This document shows positions 11,215 to 20,154 of a stretch of 32,976 nt of DNA, piece after piece (position 1 is the stretch's first letter; each line of letters begins with the position of its first letter). Both the position numbers and the translations under genes were made by a program. The stretch lies in assembly GCA_963205175.1 (NCBI GenBank), contig CAUJIW010000112.1, positions 1 through 32,976 on the forward strand. Direction: 5' to 3'. A model generated the notes under the pieces. The model searched no databases, was not told the origin of the DNA, and saw only the letters and a list, made by a program, of their open reading frames with translations. The DNA is from Pseudomonadota bacterium (lineage in GTDB: Bacteria; Pseudomonadota; Alphaproteobacteria; Sphingomonadales; Sphingomonadaceae).

Positions 11215-12282
<1,068 letters not shown>

Positions 12283-12368
12283 ACATCCTCTTTCGGCAGC
12301 AAACGCCGACGGCGCGTCGACATGGTAGCGGCAGTCTCCGGGAGTCCACCATCGTGCGCGGGCACGCC

Positions 12369-12890
12369 TCAGTGATCGCCCGTCGCCACACCCGTGGCCC
12401 CTTCCGTGCGGCCGATCTCGCTGATCCGGCGCTCGGTCGCCATGCGATCGATGCTGTCCAGCGGCAGATTGAGGAAGAGATTGATACGGTTGCGCAGGTA
12501 GCGCAGGGCCGTGAGAAACGCCTGCCGCTGACCATCGCCCTCTACCGCCGCCGGATCCTCAATACCCCAGTGGGCAGTCATCGGATGGCCCGGCCATACC
12601 GGGCAGGTCTCACCCGCCGCATTGTCGCAGACCGTGAAAATGAAATCGAACACCGGCGCGTCGGGACCGGCAACCGCGTCCCAGCTTTTGGATCGCAGAC
12701 CATCAACCGGCAGGCCCGCTTCCCGCAACACATCCAGTGCCATCGGGTGGACCTGACCCTTGGGCTGGCTGCCGGCGCTCCATGCCCGGAACCGACCGGC
12801 GCCCATGCTGTTCAGCAACGCCTCCCCCAGGATCGAGCGGGCGCTGTTGCCGGTACACAGAAACAGGACGTTATAGATCTTCTCGGTCAT
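12369..12890 (-). CDS. arsC: Arsenate reductase, low-molecular-weight phosphatase (thioredoxin-coupled) type
   Basis: A 173-residue protein with the P-loop C12-x5-R18 (LCTGNSARS) at the N terminus, as in LMW protein tyrosine phosphatases and Staphylococcus pI258 ArsC. Two further cysteines, C88 and C96 ([12 protein letters not shown]), match the redox relay that ends in a disulfide reduced by thioredoxin. The HWGIEDP motif (107-113) includes the general-acid Asp region. The C-terminal tail beyond about residue 150 is longer than in pI258 ArsC. It reduces arsenate to arsenite for export by ACR3. The ribosome site AGGA overlaps the arsR stop codon (TGAGGA), and the gap is 9 bp, so translation is probably coupled. 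Confidence 0.94.
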
Positions 12891-12899
12891 GAAAGGTCC

Positions 12900-13268
12900 T
12901 CACACGGCAGTGGCACAGACAAGGGCGCCGGTCAGATCGACGCAGAGTTCCGGGGCGCCCTGGCAGCAATCCTGCACCAGGAACGCCAGCAGGCGCCGCA
13001 TGGCGGCAAAGTCGGCGCGATAGCGGATCAACCGGCCTTCGCGCTGGGAGGCGGCAAGTCCGGCCCGCTCCAGCGTCGCCAGATGGTGGGACATCGTGGA
13101 GGCCGCCACGCCAGCGTGATCGGCGATCTCACCCGCCACCATGCCGTTGGGCCCGGCGCGCACCAGCAGACGGAAGACAGCCAGCCGGGTTTCATGGGCG
13201 AGGGCGCCCAGCGCCTCGACGGCCCAGCGGGTCGAGCCGGATTCGTTGATGGCTGAAATAGTTTCCAT
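12900..13268 (-). CDS. arsR: ArsR family arsenical-responsive repressor
   Basis: A 122-residue winged-helix protein: ALGALAHETRLAVFRLL (19-35), recognition helix in VAASTMSHHLATLERAG (54-70), wing in REGRLIRYR (76-84). It lacks the ELCVC-type site in the DNA-binding helix. Instead it has a C-terminal Cys cluster C101, C102, C109 (DCCQGAPELC) plus C118, the arrangement reported for As(III) sensing in Acidithiobacillus-type ArsR. It represses the ars operon until arsenite binds. ATG 13268 is the only plausible start, yet it has no Shine-Dalgarno sequence; the promoter elements lie so close that the mRNA may be leaderless. Confidence 0.93.
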   Translation of the reverse strand: METISAINESGSTRWAVEALGALAHETRLAVFRLLVRAGPNGMVAGEIADHAGVAASTMSHHLATLERAGLAASQREGRLIRYRADFAAMRRLLAFLVQDCCQGAPELCVDLTGALVCATAV

Positions 13269-13303: not shown

Positions 13304-13341
13304 TCCCGTCGACGGACGCCACAACGGCCATTGTCATGGAA

Positions 13342-13355
13342 CGGATACATATCCG
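13342..13355. promoter_or_regulatory. Inverted repeat upstream of the alkaline phosphatase gene
   Basis: Perfect dyad CGGATA-CA-TATCCG, 35 bp upstream of the chosen phosphatase start, in the 121-bp divergent arsR/phosphatase region. It overlaps the position expected for a promoter or operator. The binding protein is unknown. A single Pho-box-like half-site TTGTCAT lies just upstream at 13331-13337. Confidence 0.4.
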
Positions 13356-13389
13356 CTGCATGGGGATGATGGATGAAAGGAAGATGCCC

Positions 13390-14904
13390 ATGTCGAAACG
13401 CCGTCTCGCCGTCAGTGCCTGGTCACTCCCGCTAGCCTGTCTGCTCGCCCTCTCTTCCGGGGCTGACGCTCAGACCGACAGGAGCAGCGAAGGCTATCGC
13501 CAGCAGGGTGAAGCGGCGCTGACGCGGCTGAAGAACAGCACGCCGCGTCCGGCCAGGGCGCGCAATGTCATCATCTTCATCGGCGACGGCATGGGCGTCT
13601 CCACCCTGACCGCAGGACGCATCTTTGCCGGACAGTCTCTTGGCCGCGACGGTGAATCCTACGAAACCGCCATGGACAGCCTGGACCATGCCGCACTGGT
13701 CAAGACCTATTCCCACGACGCCCAGGTGGCCGACTCGGCGTCGACCGCGACCGCGATCATGACCGGTGTGAAAACCCGCAGCCGCACCCTTGGCGTCGGA
13801 CCGGAAGCCGCTTTCGAGGATTGCCCGGCCGCGCTCGCGCATCCCCTGCCGTCGCTGTTCGACATCGCCCAGCAGCGACGGCGGGCGACCGGTGTCGTCA
13901 CCACCACGCGGATTACTCATGCCACCCCGGCGGCAACCTATGCCCACACACCCCAGCGCGACTGGGAGTCCGACACGGACATGCCGGAGGCCGCCCGACG
14001 CGAGGGCTGCCTCGATATCGCCCGGCAGCTGGTGGAAGGCCCTGTCGGCGCCCGCCTGGATGTGATCCTGGGCGGCGGCCGCGCGGCGTTCCTGCCCCGA
14101 ACCCGGAAAGACCCCGAATATGCCGACAAGACCGGCGGCCGCAGCGACGGTCGCGACCTGGTCCAGGTCTGGCAGCGCGCCAATCCGAAGGCCGCGTTTG
14201 TCTGGAAGCGCGATCAGTTCGCCGCCGTCGACCCCGACCGCCATACCCGCCTGCTCGGCCTGTTCGAACCCAGTCACATGCAATACGAGGCGGACCGAGC
14301 CCGCGACGGTGCCGGTGAGCCCTCACTGGCGGAGATGGTTGAGACAGCAATCCGCATGCTGTCCCGCAACCCGCAGGGTTATGTACTGATGGTGGAAGGC
14401 GGCCGCATCGACCACGCGCATCACGCCGGAAACGCCCACCGCGCCCTTGCCGACACCAAGGCGCTCGATGAAGCGGTGGCGACCGCGCTGCGCCTGGTCG
14501 ACCTCGACGACACGCTGATCATCACCACCGCCGATCACAGCCATACACTGTCGATCAGCGGTTATCCCGGGCGCGGCAACCCCATTCTCGGCACGGTGGC
14601 GCACACGCCAGGCACGCCTGTCCTCGCCAAGGACAAGAAGGCCTACACCACGCTGTCCTACGCCAACGGCCCCGGCGCCGTCAGTGCCTCCGAGCGGCCG
14701 GACCCGGCAACCACCGACACCGGGGCGGTCGATTACCGGCAGCAGTCGCTGATTCCGCTGTCGTCCGAGACCCACGGCGGCGAGGACGTGGTGGTCCGGG
14801 CATCCGGCGCCGGCGCCCAGCTGTTCCGCGGCACCATCGAGCAGCACACCATTTTCTATATCGTGCGTGAGGCGCTGTTCGGCGCGAGCGACAACCACCA
14901 GTAA
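13390..14904 (+). CDS. phoA: Alkaline phosphatase (PhoA family), exported
   Basis: A 504-residue phosphomonoesterase. ATG 13390 is chosen because AAAGGA lies about 9 bp upstream and a Sec signal peptide then starts at once (positive KRR, hydrophobic core about residues 7-22, cleavage near ADAQ, 25-28). The much longer upstream frame would overlap arsR. Metal and active-site motifs: IGDGMG with Asp66, VADSASTAT with nucleophile Ser116, MVEGGRIDHAHHAGN, TTADHSHT and SETHGGED, the full zinc/magnesium set of E. coli-type PhoA. It releases phosphate from organic esters in the periplasm. Its neighbours, an arsenate operon on one side and a TonB receptor next to a Pho-box array on the other, fit phosphate starvation. 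Confidence 0.95.
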   Translation: MSKRRLAVSAWSLPLACLLALSSGADAQTDRSSEGYRQQGEAALTRLKNSTPRPARARNVIIFIGDGMGVSTLTAGRIFAGQSLGRDGESYETAMDSLDHAALVKTYSHDAQVADSASTATAIMTGVKTRSRTLGVGPEAAFEDCPAALAHPLPSLFDIAQQRRRATGVVTTTRITHATPAATYAHTPQRDWESDTDMPEAARREGCLDIARQLVEGPVGARLDVILGGGRAAFLPRTRKDPEYADKTGGRSDGRDLVQVWQRANPKAAFVWKRDQFAAVDPDRHTRLLGLFEPSHMQYEADRARDGAGEPSLAEMVETAIRMLSRNPQGYVLMVEGGRIDHAHHAGNAHRALADTKALDEAVATALRLVDLDDTLIITTADHSHTLSISGYPGRGNPILGTVAHTPGTPVLAKDKKAYTTLSYANGPGAVSASERPDPATTDTGAVDYRQQSLIPLSSETHGGEDVVVRASGAGAQLFRGTIEQHTIFYIVREALFGASDNHQ

Positions 14905-15313: not shown

Positions 15314-18097
15314 CTAGAAGGTGACGCGGGCACCCACCTTCACTGTCGGGCCATATTTTTCATACTGCAGCAACCGCTGCCGGCCGTTGTAATTCTGGTA
15401 GGCGAAGTACTTCGCGTTGTTGACGTTCACCCACTCGGCATAGAGGCGGATGGCGTCGGTCAGCTTGTACTTCGCCGAGATGTCGATCTGGAAGTGGTTG
15501 TCGACCCAGCGATCCTCGTCGGCGGAACCACCGATCTCATCGAGATACTTGTCGCGATACGTACCGGCGACACGCAGGTCGATCGGCCCCTTTTCGTACC
15601 CCAGCACCAGGTTGAAGGTGTTGCGCGAGTTGGACGGCAGCGAGATGGAGCGACCGTCGAACAGCGTACCCTTCGACCAGGTGTAGGTGTAGTTCGCCTG
15701 CATCAGCAGACCGTCGAACGGCGCCGGCAGCATGGTGAAGACCTGGCTGTAGCTGGCCTCGATACCCGCCACTTCGGCCTTGTCGCCGTTGAGCGGAATG
15801 ATCGCCTCGGCGAAGGTCGTGCCACGATAGACACCGTTGTAGGGGGCATCGTCAGCCTCGAAGAAGCCGTCGATGATGAAGTTGTCGATGGACTTGTAGA
15901 AGCCGCCGAACGTCACCGCGGCGTTAGGCGCGAAGTAATATTCAACCCCGGCATCAAGGTTCCACGCGATGTACGGCTTCAGGTCGGGATTGCCGAACTC
16001 CGCTTCCTCATCCTCGTTGATGGTGAAACGCGGCGCCATCTTCGAGAGCTTCGGCCGCATCAGGCTCTTGTAGCCGGCCGCCCGCAACACCAGCTCGCGC
16101 TGCGGCTGGTAGCGCACGGTCAGGCTTGGCAGCCAGTCGGTGTAGCTGCGGTCAGAGCTGACCGGCGTCACGAACACATCGTCGCCATCGTCAGCAACGA
16201 GGTTGCCGCTCATCTCGTTCTTGGTGTGCTCGACGCGCAGACCGCCGATGACGCGCAGCGTATCGCTGTCCCAGCGACCCAGCAGGTAACCGGCGGCGAC
16301 ATCTTCCTTCACCGCGTAGTCGGTGCTGCTGGAATTGAGATCGATCTCATACTGGTCGGTCTCGAAGCCGCCCCGGTTGGCCAGCAGGAACTCCGCCGCG
16401 CCGGTCTTGCTGGCAACCGGGCCCATGTCGAGCAGGCGATAGGTCTGCTTGCCGAGCACATCGGCGAGAGTGTAATCGCCATCATAGTCGCCGTAATAGA
16501 TCATGTTGAAGTCGTATGACTTCTTGCGCCAGCGCGCCTTGGCACCAGCCTGGACCGTGAAGTCGCCGCCCTCCATGGCGAACTTGCGCGCCAGATCGGC
16601 CTTCAGGGCCCATTCCCGGTCCTGACTGTCCGACAGCGTCGTCAGTTCGGTGCGGTTGAAGCCATAGTTGGTGGGATCATTGACCTCGTCGGCGCCGCTC
16701 AGGATGGTGTAGGTCGGCACCCGGGCATTGCTGTAGTCCCACGCGATGTCCACGCCGTCCTCGTCGAAGCGGGCACGGAACCGGGTCGGATCGATGGAGA
16801 AGTCCTCCTTCTCCGTCGACTTGGCGTAGCTGGCGAACCAGTCGAACTTCCAGGTGCCGGTGTCGGTGTTGCTGCCCAGCACCACGGACTGGATGCGCTG
16901 GCGCTCGAAGCGGTCCTTGATGTCACGGCGGACCTCGATACGATCATCCGCGTCACTGAAGACCGCGCCATCGGCATCCCCCTCGGCGGGTTCGCCATCG
17001 AAGATGAAGGTGGTGCGACGACGATATTCCTGATCGTCGAACTGGCTCCAGTTGCCGCGGATGTAGGCGGTCGTGGTGTCAGACGCACGCCAGTCGAACG
17101 ACAGCGCGGCGCTGAAGCGCTCGCGTGTCACGTCGTAATCGCGATATTCAACCTCTTCGTTGTAATCGACGCCATCCTCACTGGTAGACCAGGTGGTCGC
17201 CTCGACATTATCGGTCTCGAATTTGCGCTTGTAATAGCTGATGCCGCCGGCAACACCGAAATCCTCGCCCAGCCGGGTCGAGAAGTCGAAGCTACCCTTG
17301 GGTGTCACCGTGCCAGCGTAATCGTTGTAGCTGCCTTCGGCGCGCACCGCATAATAGTCCTTCTTGCGATCGAAAGCGCTGGTGGTGTTGATCTCGATGG
17401 ACGCGCCGATGGTATCGCCGTCCATATCCGGGGTCAGCGACTTCTTGACCTCGATCGACTCAATGACATCGGACGAAATAACGTCCAGCGCCACCGACCG
17501 CACATCGGACTCCGGTGCCGGCAGGCGCACGCCGTTGAGCGAGCTGGAGTTGAGCTCTGGGTCAAGCCCCCGCACCGAGACGAAGCGACCCTCGCCCTGA
17601 TCGTTCAGGATGTTGACACCCGTCAGGCGACGCAGCGATTCCGCCACGTTCTGATCGGGAAACTGGCCGATGGCGTCGCGGGTCAGCACACTCGTCACAC
17701 CGTCGGCCGCCTTCTGGCGCGACAGCGCGCTGGCCTGGCTGGCCGCCTGACCGATGACCAGAATATCGGTGGCACCCACACCGGTGAGCGCGAAGTCACC
17801 GGTCGCACGGCCGGTGGCAGGCACCGCGATGGTCCTCGTCATCGTCGTGGCACCGATATAGCGCACTTCCACCGTGTAGTTTCCGGCAGGCACATCAGCG
17901 AAAATGTAAACGCCATCACGGTCCGTGGTGGCCGCGCGGCCGAGCTCAACCAAGCGCACGCTGGCGGCCTGCAAGGCACGCGTGCCCGAGGCGTCGACAA
18001 CGGTCCCAACGAGATCGCCGGCCTGGGCAATCGAGGCAAGAGAGACCGAAGCCAACAATCCGGCAACGATCTGGAGCTGCGATGAACGGAAAATCAC
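15314..18097 (-). CDS. TonB-dependent receptor with carboxypeptidase-regulatory-like N-terminal domain
   Basis: A 927-residue outer-membrane transporter. A signal peptide (1-26, ending IAQA) is followed by a carboxypeptidase D regulatory-like beta-sandwich (about 28-105; GTVVDASGTRALQAASVRL, ADVPAGNYTVEV). Then come a TonB-box-like DILVIG (111-116), a plug domain (about 125-235; FPDQNVAESLRRLTGV, VSVRGLDPE) and a beta-barrel ending in the terminal Phe typical of outer-membrane proteins. The start is a GTG at 18095-18097 with GGGGG about 10 bp upstream. It imports a bulky substrate with TonB/ExbBD energy. The substrate is unknown, but the adjacent alkaline phosphatase and the upstream Pho-box-like array point to a phosphorylated compound. 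It converges on the phosphatase gene. Confidence 0.94.
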   Translation of the reverse strand: MIFRSSQLQIVAGLLASVSLASIAQAGDLVGTVVDASGTRALQAASVRLVELGRAATTDRDGVYIFADVPAGNYTVEVRYIGATTMTRTIAVPATGRATGDFALTGVGATDILVIGQAASQASALSRQKAADGVTSVLTRDAIGQFPDQNVAESLRRLTGVNILNDQGEGRFVSVRGLDPELNSSSLNGVRLPAPESDVRSVALDVISSDVIESIEVKKSLTPDMDGDTIGASIEINTTSAFDRKKDYYAVRAEGSYNDYAGTVTPKGSFDFSTRLGEDFGVAGGISYYKRKFETDNVEATTWSTSEDGVDYNEEVEYRDYDVTRERFSAALSFDWRASDTTTAYIRGNWSQFDDQEYRRRTTFIFDGEPAEGDADGAVFSDADDRIEVRRDIKDRFERQRIQSVVLGSNTDTGTWKFDWFASYAKSTEKEDFSIDPTRFRARFDEDGVDIAWDYSNARVPTYTILSGADEVNDPTNYGFNRTELTTLSDSQDREWALKADLARKFAMEGGDFTVQAGAKARWRKKSYDFNMIYYGDYDGDYTLADVLGKQTYRLLDMGPVASKTGAAEFLLANRGGFETDQYEIDLNSSSTDYAVKEDVAAGYLLGRWDSDTLRVIGGLRVEHTKNEMSGNLVADDGDDVFVTPVSSDRSYTDWLPSLTVRYQPQRELVLRAAGYKSLMRPKLSKMAPRFTINEDEEAEFGNPDLKPYIAWNLDAGVEYYFAPNAAVTFGGFYKSIDNFIIDGFFEADDAPYNGVYRGTTFAEAIIPLNGDKAEVAGIEASYSQVFTMLPAPFDGLLMQANYTYTWSKGTLFDGRSISLPSNSRNTFNLVLGYEKGPIDLRVAGTYRDKYLDEIGGSADEDRWVDNHFQIDISAKYKLTDAIRLYAEWVNVNNAKYFAYQNYNGRQRLLQYEKYGPTVKVGARVTF

Positions 18098-18146: not shown

Positions 18147-18186
18147 GTGTCACCTTCGGGTCAGATTGATGTCACTTTGATTACAT
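18147..18186 (+). promoter_or_regulatory. Pho-box-like array (candidate PhoB binding sites)
   Basis: Four 7-bp direct repeats start exactly 11 bp apart on the plus strand: GTGTCAC (18147), GGGTCAG (18158), ATGTCAC (18169) and ATTACAT (18180). The known Pho box is a 7-bp repeat, CTGTCAT, with an 11-bp period, so this looks like two adjacent PhoB sites; the first and third repeats match best. It lies 50-90 bp upstream of the leftward TonB-receptor start and about 190 bp upstream of the rightward chemoreceptor. The repeat orientation is that usual for rightward transcription, while the distance better suits the receptor. Confidence 0.62.
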
Positions 18187-18234: not shown

Positions 18235-18378
18235 ATGCTGGTGACCGGCGCGCCACGAGCGGCCGAACCATATTTTCTCCACCAGCCCGGCGCCGGCGGG
18301 GGATACTTCAGCTAAACCGAATATTCACACCCTTACATGAATGCTAGCAGCAACAATCATGAAACTCCGCAGGTATGT

Positions 18379-20154
18379 ATGAAAATACAACATCTTAGCG
18401 TCCGCCTTCGCGCTTTCCTGTTGATTCCGCTGGTCGCCGCAGGCCTGGTGCTGGGCGTTGTCACCGCTGTCAACCTGGGCCATGAGCGCCTGACCGAGCA
18501 GCGCGAAACCGAACTCGCCAGTCTGCTGGATGTCGCGACATCGATGGTGGCGGGGTATCAGCGAGCCGTCGATGACGGCCGGATGACCAGAGCCGAGGCA
18601 CAAGCCGACGCGATCGCCCGGCTGAAGACGGTGCGCTATCGCGGCAGCGAGTATCTGTTCATCATCGACAACGACGTACGCATGGTGATGCACCCCAACA
18701 GGCCGGAACTCGACGGTACCAGCGTGCGCGACATGAAGGATCCCAACGGTGTCGCCCTGTTCGTCGAGATGGTCGACATCGTCAGGAAAAGCGGCTCGGG
18801 CATCGTGCATTATGCATGGCCGCGCACCGGCAGCAGCGAGCCGGTGGACAAGATGAGCATGGTCAAGGCCGTGCCCGGCTGGGGGTGGATCATTGGCACC
18901 GGCGTCTATGTCGACGACCTCGCCGCCCAGTATCGCCAGGCGCTGACCCAGACCCTGCTGCTGGCGGCCGCCTTCGTTGCCGCCCTGTCGGCGGTGATCT
19001 GGCTGGTGGTGCGCAGCATCGTGCGTCCGCTCACCTCCATCAAGACGTCCATCGTCGGCCTGTCCCGGGGCGATCTCGCCGTCGACGTGCCTGCCGCCCG
19101 CCGCCATGACGAGCTGGGCGACCTCGGCCGCGCCGCCCTGGTGCTGCGGGACAACCTGCAGGCCGCCGAGGCGTTGCGCGCCGAGAACGAGGCCGCCCGG
19201 CAGCAGAACGAGCGGCGCGAGCGCGAGCACGCCGAGCAGCAGCGCCGCCAGGAGGAAGCCGCCCGGGAGCGTGAGGCGCAGATGCGTCAGGCCGCCGAGG
19301 CCGAGCGGCGGGCACAGATGCATGCGCTGGCCAACCAGTTCGAGGCCGCGGTGGGCGCGATGGTGACGACGGTCCAGCAGTCAGCGCAGGAGATGCTGGG
19401 CCTGGCGACGACACTGGGCGACAACGTGCACGAAAGCAGCCGCCGCACCGCCACCGTCGCCAGCGCATCGGAGGAGGCCGCCGCCAGTGTCCAGAGCGTC
19501 GCCACGGCGGCGGAGGAACTGGAAGCCTCGATCCGCGAGATCAGCCGCCAGATGCAGGTATCCGCCACTGCCGCCGGCGAGGCGGTGGCCCAGGCCGAGC
19601 ACAGCAATCAGGAGGTCGAGGCGCTGTCGAACGTCGCCGGCCGCATCGACGAAATCGTCGGCATGATCCAGGCGATCGCCGAGCAGACCAACCTGCTGGC
19701 GCTCAACGCCACCATCGAGGCGGCCCGCGCGGGCGAAGCTGGCAAGGGCTTCGCGGTCGTCGCCTCGGAAGTGAAGAGCCTTGCCACCCAGACCGCCAAC
19801 GCGACGGTCGAGATCACCGGTCAGGTGGAGGCCATCAAGGCGCGCGTCGGCAGCTCGATCGCCTCGATCCAGGCCATCGCCGGCACCATCGCCCAGTTCG
19901 ACAAGATCACCACCACCGTCGCGGCGGCGGTGGAGCAGCAGGGCGCGGCGACGGCGGAAATCGCCTCCAGCGCGCAGCAGGTGTCGGCCGGCACCACGCT
20001 GGTGTCGAGCAATATCGTTGGCGTCAACGAGATCGTCGAGACCAGCCGCACGGTCGCCGAAACGGTGCGCAGCTCCGCCGCCAGCGTCATGCAGCGCGCC
20101 GACGATCTGCAAAGCGCGGTCTCCGCCTTCATCGCCGAGGTGCGCGCTGCCTGA
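18379..20154 (+). CDS. Methyl-accepting chemotaxis protein with periplasmic Cache domain
   Basis: A 591-residue chemoreceptor. ATG 18379 (MKIQHLS) is preferred to an in-frame ATG at 18337 because AGG lies upstream and the protein then begins just before the first membrane helix ([22 protein letters not shown], about 9-30). A single Cache_2-type sensor follows (about 35-195; [31 protein letters not shown]). Then come a second helix ([19 protein letters not shown]), a HAMP domain ([11 protein letters not shown]), a very charged Arg/Glu/Gln coiled coil, and the signalling domain with the hairpin-tip motif [19 protein letters not shown] and [10 protein letters not shown]. It relays ligand binding to CheA/CheW. 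The ligand is unknown; a Pho-box-like array upstream suggests a role in phosphate limitation. It ends with strong hairpins before a convergent gene. Confidence 0.93.

Follow-up and report, generated by a model that had tools for sequence, protein, structure and literature searches.

A predicted Pho box upstream of a phytase-linked TonB-dependent receptor gene in a Sphingomonadales genome

A 32,976-nt stretch of DNA (hereafter the window) from the draft genome of a Sphingomonadales member (3.39 Mb in 202 contigs) contains two divergent genes separated by a short repeat array, which raises the question of which regulator reads the array and which gene it serves. On the minus strand lies the gene for a 927-aa TonB-dependent receptor (15314–18097, −), recognized by Pfam and by NCBIfam TIGR01782 (583.6 bits, cut-off 310), in which Pfam delineates an N-terminal carboxypeptidase-regulatory-like domain, a plug and a barrel; no solved structure matched it at E ≤ 1e-5. 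The plus-strand gene (18379–20154, +; upstream ATG at 18337) encodes a chemoreceptor with sCache_2, HAMP and MCP signal domains (Pfam, NCBIfam). The original prediction read the array as a Pho box that would place the receptor, the chemoreceptor or both under phosphate control.

The array (18147–18186) is made of four 7-bp half-sites arranged head-to-tail with 4-base linkers and a period of exactly 11 bp: GTGTCAC (18147–18153), GGGTCAG (18158–18164), ATGTCAC (18169–18175) and ATTACAT (18180–18186) in direct reading. Read towards the receptor gene, these become ATGTAAT, GTGACAT, CTGACCC and GTGACAC, joined by CAAA, CAAT and GAAG, and they cover −89 to −50 relative to the receptor GTG start at 18097. 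The four repeats and their exact 11-bp period were verified as originally described, and they exceed chance expectation. A plain score for four TGTCA units at 11-bp spacing reached 17 of 20 on the plus strand versus 15 of 20 on the minus strand, and neither 200 dinucleotide shuffles of the whole window nor 5,000 shuffles of the intergenic region produced a score as high as 17. Across the 3.39-Mb genome, the pattern TGWMAYNNNNNTGWMAY has 9 matches, including the array itself on the minus strand, versus a single match for the reversed control. A scan of both strands for sigma-70-like promoters found none.

We scored the site with two matrices, both trained without the window. The first was obtained by de novo expectation maximization on the upstream regions of 80 orthologues of the TonB receptor, the nearest of which belong to Novosphingobium, Sphingopyxis and Sphingobium; the genomes searched included no second one of the window's own genus. 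The motif that emerged from these 80 regions is a four-unit Pho box, TGTCATCaAACTGTCAC..aAcCGTCAC.c.gCTGTCAT. With this matrix, the held-out array scored 31.5 bits on the minus strand (17.9 bits on the plus strand) and was the top site of both window strands, compared with a maximum of 18.1 bits in 100 whole-window shuffles; none of 4,000 intergenic shuffles reached 31.5 bits. Because conservation among orthologues does not in itself prove PhoB, the second matrix was built solely from promoters of pstS, the classical PhoB target, using 29 promoters from other Sphingomonadales genomes with no TonB gene among them and trimming the result to its informative columns. The array was again the top site in the window, at 21.4 bits on the minus strand versus 10.2 bits on the plus strand; 3 of 5,000 intergenic shuffles reached 21.4 bits, and the maximum in 200 whole-window shuffles was 19.8 bits. 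The Pho-box reading is thus supported by both matrices, under each of which no other site in the window scores as high as the array, and the matrix test that had been proposed for it places the array far above background. Judged from its sequence, the array at 18147–18186 is almost certainly a PhoB site.

Direct repeats with a spacing near 11 bp are common among OmpR-family regulators, five further PhoB-like regulators score in the same genome, and the half-sites of the array have drifted toward TGACA; a different regulator from the OmpR/PhoB family, or some other reader of TGACA/TGTCA repeats, might therefore bind the array in place of PhoB. However, the matrix trained on pstS promoters alone finds both this array and those of the orthologues, and phosphate-acquisition genes are among the neighbours, so that we consider a substitute regulator very unlikely. 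A different concern is that the array arose by chance or is a decayed remnant, the box having been lost along with its operon and its function being gone, as might be suspected from the absence of a phytase partner from the locus and from the degenerate third half-site. Chance is ruled out by the shuffles, the reading frame of the receptor is intact and the score of 31.5 bits is typical of the orthologues, as it falls within their quartiles (25.5–34.0 bits, median 29.7 bits). Taken together, these points make chance or decay extremely improbable, and we proceed with the array as a predicted PhoB site.

The position of the box points to the receptor gene as its target. With the first matrix, the best sites of the orthologues lie at a median of about −89 (interquartile range −110 to −82), and boxes in this group are found about 75–125 bp upstream of the start; the window array starts at −89. 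The pstS matrix independently located a site at p ≤ 0.05 upstream of 79 of the 80 orthologues and at p ≤ 0.01 upstream of 55, again at a median of −89 (p values calculated against random pieces of each locus). The suggestion that distance favours the TonB receptor is borne out, in that the box sits where the receptor orthologues carry theirs, and the proposed tie between an outer-membrane receptor and the phosphate regulon is upheld, at the level of sequence, by the held-out matrices and the orthologue boxes. We therefore propose that the Pho box very probably switches on the TonB receptor gene (15314–18097, −) when phosphate runs out.

The orientation of such an array is easily misjudged, because TGTCA reads TGACA on the opposite strand. 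It had been argued that orientation favours the chemoreceptor; the plain consensus does lean slightly towards the plus strand (17 versus 15), but both matrices, whose columns extend over the linkers, give the minus strand the higher score. The two strands differ little when only the half-sites are scored (23.0 bits on the minus versus 20.2 bits on the plus strand), and the minus-strand preference arises because the linkers CAAA, CAAT and GAAG match the orthologue consensus on that strand only. In three of the four half-sites the minus strand has TGAC in place of TGTC. This third base is rare in the orthologue matrix (10–14% in most of its columns), and the third half-site of the array scores about zero. 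No single orientation call is infallible, since the pstS matrix runs in the forward direction in only 69 of the 80 orthologues; the reverse direction scores higher in the other 11, five of them from Sphingopyxis. Position is a firmer argument than orientation for the receptor as the target. In those five Sphingopyxis orthologues (L018, L074, L081, L082 and L087), the upstream arrays mix TGTCA with TGACA/GTAACAC units, which suggests that the box has either drifted or come to be used differently in that lineage.

Could the same box also serve the chemoreceptor? PhoB bound at the array might activate both genes, as they flank a common intergenic region, the plain consensus prefers the plus strand and, the half-sites being nearly palindromic, either matrix can still read a match on the plus strand (17.9 and 10.2 bits). 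Against such dual control, 253 of 5,000 intergenic shuffles attain the plus-strand score that the pstS matrix gives (10.2 bits), which is thus near background, and the chemoreceptor start lies 192 bp from the array, well outside the 75–125 bp seen for boxes of this group. Conservation upstream of orthologues of both genes had been put forward as a test, and only half of it stood: the repeats are kept upstream of the receptor orthologues, but at E ≤ 1e-100 neither 60 relatives nor 299 genomes of the same family yielded an orthologue of the chemoreceptor, so conservation gives control of the chemoreceptor no support. Nor does any of the 80 orthologue loci have a chemoreceptor gene as the receptor's neighbour. 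Seven chemoreceptor homologues from other families of the class (35–42% identity, tblastn) showed no convincing box in the direction of the gene. The candidate at one of them (L198) was rejected, as its score of 19.5 bits, in the reverse direction, fell to 15.5 bits with its own base composition and the site points away from the gene.

The protein itself also argues against an analogy with the phosphate chemoreceptor CtpL, which had been invoked in favour of Pho control. CtpL-type ligand domains are helical bimodular, whereas sCache_2 covers the sensor region of the window protein. Its nearest NCBIfam model is the malate receptor CtpM (167.7 bits, below the cut-off of 900) and the solved sensors closest to it belong to other chemoreceptors of the Cache type, so the domain type differs from that of the PstS-sensing CtpL. 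With a long distance, a weaker orientation and no conservation, the idea of chemoreceptor or dual control found no positive support. We consider it unlikely that PhoB at the array activates both genes, and the chemoreceptor is most likely a bystander. It is quite improbable that the box drives both so that starvation would induce a phosphoester importer together with a lineage-specific chemoreceptor; if it did, uptake would be coupled to chemotaxis toward organic phosphate or the carboxylate by-products of it.

Returning to the receptor as the probable target, the genome encodes the machinery that its control by phosphate would need: phoR is present next to a pstS-pstC-pstA-pstB-phoU-phoB cluster, with PhoB recognized by TIGR02154 (352.9 bits, cut-off 296.2), and the genome's own pstS is preceded by a 38.9-bit Pho box in the pstS direction. 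In the mechanism that we propose, PhoB in its phosphorylated form would occupy the four half-sites, which run head-to-tail from −89 to −50, and would bring in RNA polymerase to transcribe the receptor gene. The substrate that this receptor takes across the outer membrane would most likely be phytate, one of its breakdown products or a similar phosphoester, which periplasmic phosphatases would then cleave. Further Pho-box-like arrays were seen elsewhere in the genome. Three more TonB receptor genes (L118, C38; L204, C96; L123, C57) have candidate arrays shortly upstream, in the direction of the gene. A three-unit 11-bp array (L202/L203, C67:11808–11835, −) scores 27.2 bits with the pstS matrix and lies upstream of an EAL-type-like signalling frame; it is A-rich and therefore may be a chance match.

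The proposed substrate derives from the company that the receptor keeps in relatives. A beta-propeller phytase is encoded in the same locus for 73 of the 80 receptor orthologues, mostly starting at the receptor stop codon, and in two loci (L044 and L051) the gene that follows the receptor encodes a purple acid phosphatase. In another two (L059 and L063), the phytase gene is located on the opposite strand, upstream of the receptor gene, and such a divergent pair would share one box. A TonB receptor gene beside a phytase gene in Citromicrobium bathyomarinum JL354 was likewise taken to suggest phytic acid as the substrate (PMC3400609), and among the members of the Caulobacter PhoB regulon are a phytase and several TonB-dependent receptors (PMC11208175), so that PhoB control of such genes is not new in principle. 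Given the phytase in 73 of 80 loci and these two precedents, our best guess is that the receptor imports phytate or a related phosphoester. Consistent with this, phytate or related phosphoesters can be proposed as the substrate class for the whole receptor group, which is uncharacterized, widespread in Sphingomonadales and mostly phytase-linked, and which two independent lines of sequence evidence place in the phosphate regulon.

No phytase gene was found in the window. The window receptor, a TIGR01782 protein, is nonetheless nested within the phytase-linked clade, as sister to eleven other orthologues (98% SH-aLRT), so the missing phytase is a derived state. Both types of enzyme that are same-locus partners in relatives occur here on separate contigs, each with its own Pho box: a box scoring 27.6 bits precedes a beta-propeller phytase gene (L106, C181:3610–4704, −) at about −82, and a perfect dyad, TGTCATCAAACTGTCAT, is found about 70 bp upstream of the gene for a purple acid phosphatase (PF16656; C92, L107:4304–5740, +). 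The explanation that the phytase of the operon had simply moved elsewhere was rejected, as the genome phytase groups with the Sphingobium type (89/79 support) and not with the receptor's Novosphingobium clade; from this placement, it is unlikely to have been the receptor's first partner. The partner genes are thus dispersed in an unusual way; separate Pho boxes at them would provide co-regulation in place of an operon, and the genome thus illustrates how the operon of relatives has been replaced by separate promoters, each with a Pho box.

Within the window, the receptor gene instead converges with a gene for a PhoA-type alkaline phosphatase (13393–14904, +; PF00245, 453.6 bits; start uncertain, the longest frame beginning at 13141), with about 400 bp between the two gene ends. 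An alkaline phosphatase gene adjoins the receptor gene in none of the 80 orthologue loci. Upstream of the phosphatase lies a weak Pho-box-like site, ATTGTCATGGAACGGATAC... (13330–13360, +), which is second-best in the window with the pstS matrix (13.7 bits) and scores only 7.4 bits with the orthologue matrix; 0.44% of shuffles of that promoter reached its score. We keep this site as tentative because the upstream regions of alkaline phosphatase orthologues from 24 relatives showed no consistent Pho box. Directly beside the alkaline phosphatase is an arsenic cassette (11215–13268, −) consisting of arsR (12900–13268, −), an arsC-like gene (12369–12890, −) and an SBF/Acr3-type exporter gene (11215–12282, −), which makes arsenic and phosphate genes neighbours.

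Three known systems frame these results. CtpL of Pseudomonas aeruginosa, which takes its phosphate signal from PstS (PMC4926252) and becomes more abundant in phosphate starvation (PMC9864684), is a chemoreceptor like the window protein, but the latter has an sCache_2 sensor, is nearest to CtpM and has no convincing box pointing its way. The known Pho boxes of E. coli pstS and phoA and of Caulobacter likewise consist of 7-bp, near-TGTCA half-sites repeated head-to-tail every 11 bp upstream of phosphate-acquisition genes; by comparison, the half-sites of the window array have drifted to TGACA on the coding strand, and the PhoB site here is a predicted one. The third comparison is with the TonB–phytase loci. 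The pair in C. bathyomarinum JL354 has a receptor of the same family as that in the window, and the loci of other Sphingomonadales carry a phytase together with a Pho box at the same distance as in the window, whereas the window receptor adjoins an alkaline phosphatase, and the phytase and the purple acid phosphatase reside on other contigs.
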